Origin: a bacterium BMS3Abin11
GTDB lineage: Bacteria; Pseudomonadota; Gammaproteobacteria; BMS3Bbin11
Assembly (NCBI GenBank): GCA_002897635.1
Contig: BDTD01000025.1
Coordinates: 62,001-126,000, forward strand
Length of the DNA stretch: 64,000 nt
Direction: 5' to 3'
Shown here: piece after piece, positions 34,364 through 36,701 of the stretch
How the letters are laid out: every line of letters starts with the position of its first letter
How positions within the stretch are numbered: position 1 is the first letter of the stretch
Notes under the pieces: model-generated
What the model was told of the DNA's origin: nothing
Seen by the model: only the letters and a program-made list of their open reading frames with translations
Database searches by the model: none
Position numbers and translations under genes: made by a program

Positions 34364-35629
34364 TTAAAGGTCACGGATCAATCGACGCAGATCACTCCTG
34401 GCTTTCTCATAACTGGACTTCATATTTTTACCGGTGCTTGCTTCAATAGCGTTAACCTCACCAGCCACCGTCACGATTTTGCCTTTCAATGTACCGTTAG
34501 CAGCGTTGATGGCGCGGTTCAGGGAGTTCTTGACCAGCTTCAGGTTGTAGGCCAGCGCGGCATCATCATGATCGATCAATTGCGATATCTCGGCATAACC
34601 CAGCTCCAGCTTGGCGTCTATCAGGTTCTTTTTAACTTTGCTGGCGCCGTGCAGTTTTTGCCAGCCAGCACTGATGTTTTCGGCTTCATGTTCGGACAGG
34701 GCCACCGCTCTTTGCCAGAGACCGGCGAGCCTGGATTTGGCATGTTCAGTATTTGCCGATAGGTCTTTCGACAGTGTCCGGACAGTCTTCTCCATCTCAA
34801 CCAACTTCTTTTGCGTGCGCTTATCGGCATTACCTTTTGCCTGCGCCAACCAACCACTGGCAGCGGCCAGATCGGCCCTGGCAGCGTCATAGCGCCCGGC
34901 GGCATAATCGCGGATGGCTTGCGTGATGCTGTTGCGCGACTGGGTGAGCGGCGATTCGACCGCCAGGGATAGGAATTGCACGTTATCCTCTGCAACGGCC
35001 AGCATTTTATCAGCGGCTTCAGGCTTGTTGTTCGCCAGCAGTCCCTCGGCAGCAATAACAGCCTGAGTCGTACTCGACAACGGCAGGTCAATCTCCGTAT
35101 AGATCAATGTATCCTGCACTGCTTCCAGTTCCGTCCTGGCACCGGCTTTCTTGCCCTTCTTCAGATACTGCCGGGCTTTCCCCAGGTGTTTGCGGGCTTG
35201 TTCGACCGGTAATATATCTGCGATATCCACTAACTCGGCGTCGATGGGAACGAGGTCCAGACCCACTTCCTCGCTCGTCCTGTAATCCAGCTGTTTTTTT
35301 GCGGCCCATATATGGTCAATAATGCTGGCGGTTGGGCGTACAGACCTGATAATTTCGAGCAGCGTGCGGGCCTGCTCCAGATTTACCCTGGCCTGACCCA
35401 GGTCTTCAGCATGAATCGCGGCCCGCGCATTGGCAATATGCCGTAATACCCTGGCGGCAGAACGGGATATGATGCGCTCCTCGGCGCGGCTGACAGTGCG
35501 CCCCGGGACGACACTGACTTCTTCATGAAGGCCGACCGCCGGAACGGTTTGTGCGGTGACGGTGACGGTGGCGACCAGCATAGCGGCGACCAACAGGCTC
35601 AATAAACCAAATCGTGGTAGATTTTTCAT
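34364..35629 (-). CDS. Large YfdX-family secreted protein
   Basis: A 421-residue protein with a signal peptide (LLSLLVAAMLVATVTVTAQT). The first half carries the YfdX pattern (ARVLRHIANARAAIHAEDLGQARVNLEQARTLLEIIR; DILPVEQARKHLGKARQYLKKGKKAGARTELEAVQDTLIYTEIDLPL, in parts; LLANNKPEAADKMLAVAEDNV). The second half is a further helical extension without a known motif. It is about twice the size of usual YfdX proteins. GGAG precedes the ATG (35629). It lies alone between debris and an inverted-repeat element. Confidence 0.85.
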   Translation of the reverse strand: MKNLPRFGLLSLLVAAMLVATVTVTAQTVPAVGLHEEVSVVPGRTVSRAEERIISRSAARVLRHIANARAAIHAEDLGQARVNLEQARTLLEIIRSVRPTASIIDHIWAAKKQLDYRTSEEVGLDLVPIDAELVDIADILPVEQARKHLGKARQYLKKGKKAGARTELEAVQDTLIYTEIDLPLSSTTQAVIAAEGLLANNKPEAADKMLAVAEDNVQFLSLAVESPLTQSRNSITQAIRDYAAGRYDAARADLAAASGWLAQAKGNADKRTQKKLVEMEKTVRTLSKDLSANTEHAKSRLAGLWQRAVALSEHEAENISAGWQKLHGASKVKKNLIDAKLELGYAEISQLIDHDDAALAYNLKLVKNSLNRAINAANGTLKGKIVTVAGEVNAIEASTGKNMKSSYEKARSDLRRLIRDL

Positions 35630-35746: not shown

Positions 35747-35800
35747 TCCCTGACAGTTCCATATTGGAGAGAAAAAGAGGAAAGAGGATCTTACTAAACA

Positions 35801-35918
35801 GTGCGTTGTTTATCCGACATGTTATTTACAGACCGTCGGCAGCAGGGATGCTGCCGCCGAGTGTACAGGGATGTATTTACAGCGTGTCTGTAAATAACAT
35901 GTCGGATAAACAACGCAC
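35801..35918. repeat. 118-bp element with perfect 33-bp inverted ends
   Basis: The arms 35801-35833 and 35886-35918 are exact reverse complements over 33 bases (each beginning or ending in GTGCGTTGTTTATCC). The 52-bp centre contains a second small hairpin (GGCAGC-AGGGAT-GCTGCC) and the string TACAGGGATGTATTTACAGC. No clear target-site duplication is seen. It resembles a REP-like or MITE-like element and, between the YfdX and Crp genes, could also end transcription. Confidence 0.9.
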
Positions 35919-35957
35919 ACCCTAGCAGGAATTGCAGACGGGTAGCGATTATACCCG

Positions 35958-36701
35958 CTACTCATGTGACAAAAAGACTTCCGCCTGCTCTTTCAGCGCC
36001 TCCAGTTTCGATACGGCCAAGTAGTTGGAATGACTGTTCAGCACTCCTTTGCCGCGGAACACCTGCAGATGTTTGTTGACCACTTGCCGGGTCGAACCAA
36101 TCATGCGTGCAAGAGAATCCTGATTCAGGTCATGGATCAGTCTGACGTCGTGAGATGCGTTTGCAGCAGAACGATCAGGCAGGGTGTGGCGCAGGATCAA
36201 CCTGGCCAGTCGGGTTACAGTATCTTTCATGGCCAGATCAGCAGCCAGATCCTCCATCCTGCGCATTTGCGCGCCCAGGTAAGGTAAAAAATTACGATTG
36301 AATTCAGGATGACAGCTTATCCACTCACGCACGAGCCGACTGGGGGCACTCAGCAAATACAAATCATCCAGGGCCGTTGTCATAGACTCGTGCGATTGAT
36401 CATCCAACAGGTTGATGATATCGAAACCATCCCCAGGGCCCAGCAGAAAAAGAATAATCCGATCACCCGATGCAACATCAATACGTTCCACCTTGACGCG
36501 CCCATTAATAATCAGGTAAAAACGCTGCAATAATGAAGGTGCATCTACTTCGACACCCTTACGCCACGTAATGTGAAGGAACCGTTCAAGCATGTAACTC
36601 AGGATTTCATCAGACAGGCCGCTGAACAGGGGCGATAGCGCAAGTTTGCTTTTGCAATGCAAGTAAAGAGGAGAACCTGTATTCATAGAGTTTCTGTCCA
36701 A
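35958..36701 (-). CDS. Crp/Fnr-family transcriptional regulator
   Basis: A 247-residue regulator. The N-terminal cyclic-nucleotide-type beta-barrel has no CRP-like phosphate cassette or Fnr cysteine cluster that I can see. A long dimer helix (FNRNFLPYLGAQMRRMEDL) and a C-terminal winged helix follow (DLNQDSLARMIGSTRQVVNKHLQVFRGKGVL). The recognition helix has TRQVVNK, not the E..SR of Fnr. It is encoded 38 bp behind the cytochrome c gene on the same strand, so it likely belongs to that operon and may control the divergent redox genes. Confidence 0.88.
   Translation of the reverse strand: MDRNSMNTGSPLYLHCKSKLALSPLFSGLSDEILSYMLERFLHITWRKGVEVDAPSLLQRFYLIINGRVKVERIDVASGDRIILFLLGPGDGFDIINLLDDQSHESMTTALDDLYLLSAPSRLVREWISCHPEFNRNFLPYLGAQMRRMEDLAADLAMKDTVTRLARLILRHTLPDRSAANASHDVRLIHDLNQDSLARMIGSTRQVVNKHLQVFRGKGVLNSHSNYLAVSKLEALKEQAEVFLSHE

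Follow-up and report, generated by a model that had tools for sequence, protein, structure and literature searches.

Several described repeats and RNAs share features with the locus reported here. The TwoAYGGAY motif (RF01731) combines an outer stem with two hairpins that carry GGA in their loops, and it has already been proposed as a CsrA binder (PMC4333381). YPAL, also termed RU-2, is a unit of 168 bp in Yersinia whose copies have their arms in common; it has been described as mobile, with target duplications of 3–26 bp and with filled and empty sites (PMC2229807). Ysr224 (RF02770) is a small RNA. GGA in hairpin loops is also found in CsrB, CsrC and RsmX/Y/Z, and short dispersed palindromic DNA is known as REP or REPIN. 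The analysis of the present locus ties the separately named TwoAYGGAY motif, Ysr224 sRNA and YPAL repeat into one architecture and indicates which strand matters.

The window, a 64-kb stretch, belongs to a genome of 2.67 Mb in 38 contigs. It contains an element with arms of 33 nt each that are 100% complementary and enclose a spacer of 52 nt. A preliminary description had reported a perfect inverted repeat in a non-coding gap, and this repeat is real. An exhaustive scan of the 64-kb window revealed no second perfect inverted repeat of at least 12 bp (spacer 3–100), and the element is located in the interval between two minus-strand genes (34364–35629 and 35958–36701). An 89-aa ORF overlaps it mechanically. 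The following features were assigned:

34364–35629, minus strand: neighbouring gene for a YfdX-domain protein (PF10938), start about 170 bp from the element
35796–35923, plus strand: full-length, sub-threshold match to RF01731 TwoAYGGAY (40.6 bits, E 1.3e-5, gathering score 43)
35801–35833, plus strand: 5′ arm of the outer stem, 33 nt, taking in core bases 1–4 (AGAC)
35830–35889, plus strand: conserved core, 60 bp, common to copies in other genomes
35830–35935, minus strand: sub-threshold match to RF02770 Ysr224 (22.5 bits, gathering score 70), on the opposite strand of the element
35838–35855, plus strand: hairpin 1 of the fold, GGCAG-CAGGGATG-CTGCC, apex 35843–35850; stem covaries between copies
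35864–35875, plus strand: hairpin 2 of the fold, TACA-GGGA-TGTA; stem covaries, loop NGGA in 80/80 copies
35886–35918, plus strand: 3′ arm of the outer stem, pairing perfectly with the 5′ arm and taking in the last four core bases (GTCT)
35958–36701, minus strand: neighbouring gene for a Crp-like regulator (PF13545, PF00027), stop about 40 bp from the element

Folded as DNA, the element reaches −51 kcal/mol compared to −14.6 ± 2.4 kcal/mol for shuffles of a 131-nt stretch, none of 200 being as good, and the RNA of each strand also has a far better fold than shuffled sequences. The centre holds a hairpin of its own (35838–35855), as had been suggested. An RNA of the plus strand would form a three-way junction, in which the 33-bp arms build a long outer stem and two short hairpins present NGGA loops. 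Both loops of the window copy show NGGA and read AGGGAT. GGA is present in both loops of 80/80 de-duplicated copies, a count that is partly built in as the search pattern and the model contain GGA, and both hairpin stems vary in a compensatory manner between genomes. The earlier idea of a strong RNA structure is borne out by massive covariation between copies.

The element has the TwoAYGGAY architecture, with about 30 bp in the outer stem, a pair of GGA hairpins on the plus strand and a multicopy occurrence in genomes. It differs by a shorter hairpin 2 with an asymmetric TTTAC bulge and by its AGGGAT loops, so the literal AYGGAY is lacking in both of them. The match to RF01731 was obtained in a search of 171 bases, was absent from a 701-base search and does not reach the gathering threshold. 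Canonical TwoAYGGAY copies that were fetched have the architecture in common with the window variant, but not the sequence. Among 370 gammaproteobacterial genomes, RF01731 matches 23 and R1, a covariance model built for the window-type variant, matches 77, with 6 in common. Three genomes of one genus contain TwoAYGGAY pairs whose members face in opposite directions and lie within a span of about 350 bp (G249:C1:460963-461308 and 1853353-1853707; G152:C2:97225-97565; G324:C1:2051941-2052277).

None of 18 core-bearing loci that were scanned passes the TwoAYGGAY cut-off. On the opposite strand, four of the 18 score above the Ysr224 threshold (two from Y. similis, one each from Y. pekkanenii and Pectobacterium), and thus Ysr224 corresponds to the reverse strand of such copies. 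Furthermore, the printed 168-nt RU-2 (YPAL) sequence (PMC2759123) contains the core: 41 of 53 aligned columns are identical to the window core, with a score of 28, whereas none of 1000 shuffles scored above 15. This homology covers the core and not a 168-bp unit including the arms, since the arms of the window copy are unrelated by eye to those of YPAL. We classify the element as a lone copy of a repeat dispersed in Gammaproteobacteria, belonging as a variant to the TwoAYGGAY/YPAL-Ysr224 group.

In its own genome the element occurs once. All other matches were 14-base chance hits, a 51-base core pattern with three mismatches allowed gave a single match, and the 5′ arm sequence recurs nowhere besides the partner arm. 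An isolated chance palindrome or a bidirectional terminator of this genome was rejected as an explanation. Its single-copy state would agree with that; the core homologues in many genomes already refute it, and no terminator-like site was called at the element, which leaves this explanation next to no credibility. Region 35830–35889 recurs in several of 56 genomes (the own genome and related ones), e.g. G052 and G042. A pattern scan of GTDB representatives yielded at least 120 core-bearing stretches, 80 of which were fetched; the hosts among the matches listed include Marinobacter, Rheinheimera, Methylotuvimicrobium, Yersinia, Pectobacterium and many uncultured Gammaproteobacteria. The genomes of this class matched by R1 (77/370) often contain at least ten copies each, and all 33 matched among 397 genomes of the phylum belong to the same class. 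Copy numbers per genome are lower bounds, as 7 (RF01731), 11 (R1, class) or 10 (R1, phylum) candidates were scored in each.

The search for arm and centre proposed in the preliminary description gave one copy at home and a recurrent core elsewhere. Its impression that the centre resembles a dispersed gammaproteobacterial repeat proved right: the string TACAGGGATGTATTTACAGC (35864–35883) is part of such a repeat. Searches with the full element against E. coli genomes and with the 60-nt core of one copy (L094) against plasmids and phages gave no match beyond short ones at chance level, and a 14-mer of the core was not found in the literature searched. Five model matches on one strand of G531:C1:94424-95426 (at 94424, 94651, 94880, 95107 and 95334), about 228 bp apart, have the look of a tandem array. 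Genome G042 (54 matches) harbours a high-copy family with related arms and coordinated multi-base differences in both arms.

The core is conserved, in contrast to the arm sequences, which vary freely. Arm identity between copies amounts to 31% compared to 25% in a reversed control (1431 pairs), so a transposon with conserved terminal inverted repeats is not at hand and the identification as a MITE of this type was rejected. Within copies, the arms are paired. Three of 82 copies lie near contig ends and were left out; in the remaining 79, which were not selected for stems and therefore give the fair figure for arm pairing, the outer stem reaches at least 18 bp in 54. A pairing score above 7 was reached by 54/79 true arm partners, compared to 1/232 controls recombined from the 5′ flank of one copy and the 3′ flank of another. 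In alignment A1 (46 rows, the window copy and 45 of 55 references) 20/20 outer pairs change on both sides, mostly via all four Watson–Crick types, and 94.9% of the outer-arm cells are paired, a value biased upwards by picking all rows for stems of at least 14. The arms appear to travel as part of the unit, and their pairing is maintained. The perfect arms of the window copy had been read as a sign of recent insertion or strong selection; they are no proof of recency, because near-perfect arms also occur in copies whose arms and flanks have diverged.

The REP doublet considered earlier was also rejected, since a GTAG tag is lacking and the stem composition is unlike that of published CGTC REPs (by eye, compared to PMC3733652). 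CGTC does precede hairpin 1, but the stem is without the A–T start of CGTC REPs (PMC3733652), and the element differs from REP/REPIN sequences by its conserved asymmetric core and its free outer arms.

A G–T mismatch in the arms is a wobble pair in RNA of the plus strand, and an A–C mismatch is the same wobble in RNA of the minus strand. About 9% of the arm pairs are not Watson–Crick in the set in which GT and AC mismatches were counted as 57:16; after removal of related arms the ratio was 52:14. Further copies from other genomes gave 35:7 and 17:2, and a scripted set of 70 copies, left after 112 had been dropped (short stem, ORF overlap, contig edge, similar arms), gave 71:17; the sets overlap partly and are not independent, except for the 35:7 and 17:2 groups. 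G–A mismatches make up part of the remaining inner-stem mismatches, in agreement with the tandem G–A noted for TwoAYGGAY in PMC4333381. As judged from these sequence comparisons, the wobble bias is pointing to selection on RNA of the GGA strand. Strand-biased mutation, e.g. during transcription, could produce the same asymmetry. The bias showed no significant dependence on the direction of the left-hand gene in the scripted set (28:2 vs. 34:10, P = 0.11) and is thus no proof of transcription of any given copy; a dependence that seemed strong in a hand-typed subset (23:1 vs. 14:10) did not hold up in the larger scripted set. Copies have no orientation bias relative to genes (20 ++ vs. 17 −− of 79, based on crude ORFs).

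Evidence for movement comes from comparison of related genomes. In genus g93 three of six genomes have 12–18 copies and three have none. G204 and G098 share one orthologous copy (82.7% over 3 kb), and the site is filled in these two and empty in four of six congeners, the empty ones being 135, 154, 158 and 171 bp shorter. The four empty sites show neither arm, for which reason the arms seem to arrive together with the core; flanks of only 76–79% identity, i.e. intergenic divergence, limit this inference. Nine copies in G337 have near-identical arms and some outer flank in common and are a burst of whole units. Conserved ends outside the core were not found in most genomes, and the flanks of the window copy were matched only in its own genome among seven genomes of the genus. 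The non-autonomous mobile element of the preliminary description is partly supported, by dispersal, a mobile relative (YPAL, PMC2229807) and empty orthologous sites of one copy elsewhere, and not with regard to conserved terminal repeats.

Dispersal in many copies, empty sites, the lack of gene-orientation bias and the mobility of YPAL would also suit a purely DNA-level selfish element, in which a transposase mobilises a hairpin, the GGA loops belong to a DNA recognition hairpin and RNA is irrelevant. As to a cognate RAYT, a Y1 transposase is somewhat more frequent among high-copy genomes (17/20) than among genomes without copies (11/19, P = 0.08). Y1 transposases do not clearly track the family. 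Against a DNA-level element, three of the 20 high-copy genomes gave no Y1 match, the one-strand wobble bias and the inner-stem G–A mismatches fit RNA, and most genomes are without conserved ends outside the core. We regard this explanation as unlikely. The window's own genome (G000) contains ten Y1 transposase matches (on C9, C36, C5, C23 and others), four of which are strong, three of these in 147-aa open frames.

How the arms stay paired was followed in G368, whose 11 copies have arms that are graded variants of one another. Distances, from copy pairs that are not independent, amount to 0.026 in the core, 0.000 in the hairpin 1 stem, 0.33 in the arms and 0.61 in the outer flanks. Although about one third of the arm pairs differ, 328/332 arm pairs are Watson–Crick, and the hairpin 1 stem is unchanged. 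Between close copies, pair changes of the transversion type are as frequent as those of the transition type (55 and 57, again from non-independent copy pairs), single-base indels are mirrored between the arms (L240/L241), and L241 differs from L247 by one mirrored transversion. A model of compensatory change by sequential fixation (1% mismatch, S = 8, GU cost 4), which takes neutral time from the flank distance, assumes the flanks to be homologous and neutral and ignores simultaneous double mutants, predicts about 0.02–0.03 pair differences compared to 0.34 seen. This suggests that, in G368, a one-step mechanism in which one arm is copied from its partner agrees better with the data than sequential fixation. 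Near-perfect mirroring is not general: mirrored to unmirrored changes, from non-independent copy pairs, were 241:58 in G368 and 56:26 in G221, and most other genomes had as many or more unmirrored changes (G088 52:57, G361 45:98, G253 37:61, G083 8:24, G337 9:26).

It is conceivable, and we put it forward tentatively, that the repeat is a mobile RNA element in which an invariant putative pair of CsrA sites is combined with arms that diversify and are then rewritten: hairpin-primed or template-switch synthesis would use one arm as DNA template for the other, and every copy would thereby acquire a perfect stem of its own. Template-switch mutation keeps the hairpins of rRNA and microRNA paired, according to PMC8794818, and accounts for mirrored multi-base changes in stems; our proposal extends it to a dispersed repeat of bacteria. 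A family that has a frozen core, free arms and many copies in a genome also provides a natural experiment on the pairing of long hairpins, a long-standing puzzle.

Since the arms in G361 (core distance 0.054, arms 0.59) are unrelated and those in G193 mostly so, with nearly identical cores in both genomes, we weighed seriously whether palindromes serve as insertion sites of the core or whether the core makes an inverted duplicate of its flank, the arms being target DNA that is new at each insertion. Insertion into palindromes has been reported for other REP dimers (PMC3733652), and PMC2229807 places YPAL next to dyad symmetry. The graded arms of G368, the near-identical arms of the nine G337 copies and the orthologous pair in G204 and G098, which shows stepwise arm changes (compensated, wobble and some uncompensated), nevertheless rank this explanation low, and neither arm is present at the empty sites, though with the limited flank identity given above. 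We consider it quite improbable.

Paired GGA hairpins, a trait of CsrA-binding RNA, are present in the element, and positions 35863–35874 (GTACAGGGATGT, hairpin 2 with a flanking base) fit exactly the CsrA SELEX consensus RUACARGGAUGU as quoted in PMC7652899. Two csrA-like genes are present in the own genome (G000:C4:2194-2346 and C11:41650-41802). A CsrA/RsmA dimer would grip both hairpins of one RNA, and the element could act as a CsrA decoy or as a local CsrA site in whichever transcript holds it. Likeness to CsrB, CsrC and RsmX/Y/Z is given by the GGA loops and the SELEX-like site; unlike them, dedicated RNA genes with numerous sites, the element is a dispersed repeat with two candidate sites. 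Transcription, CsrA binding and any effect on the neighbouring genes are inferred, and we regard a variant TwoAYGGAY/YPAL-Ysr224 repeat with paired GGA hairpins as a probable, still putative, CsrA decoy or local site. A link between CsrA and YPAL was not found among the papers listed from the open-access literature searched. If CsrA binds, many gammaproteobacteria carry tens of mobile sites that could titrate a global regulator. The window copy itself may be inert, because no sigma-70-like promoter was found for it and both neighbours run the opposite way, their location on the minus strand making the GGA strand antisense to both.

A YPAL-like copy was observed in 5 of 5426 E. coli genomes, all from wastewater, with four of the five places on plasmids. 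On one of the E. coli plasmids (NZ_CP058751.1, L168:2430-2640) the copy sits between two GC-rich hairpins that resemble each other, caggggccatatgcccctga and caggggcaaaatgcccctg, an arrangement suggestive of a terminator duplicated during insertion.
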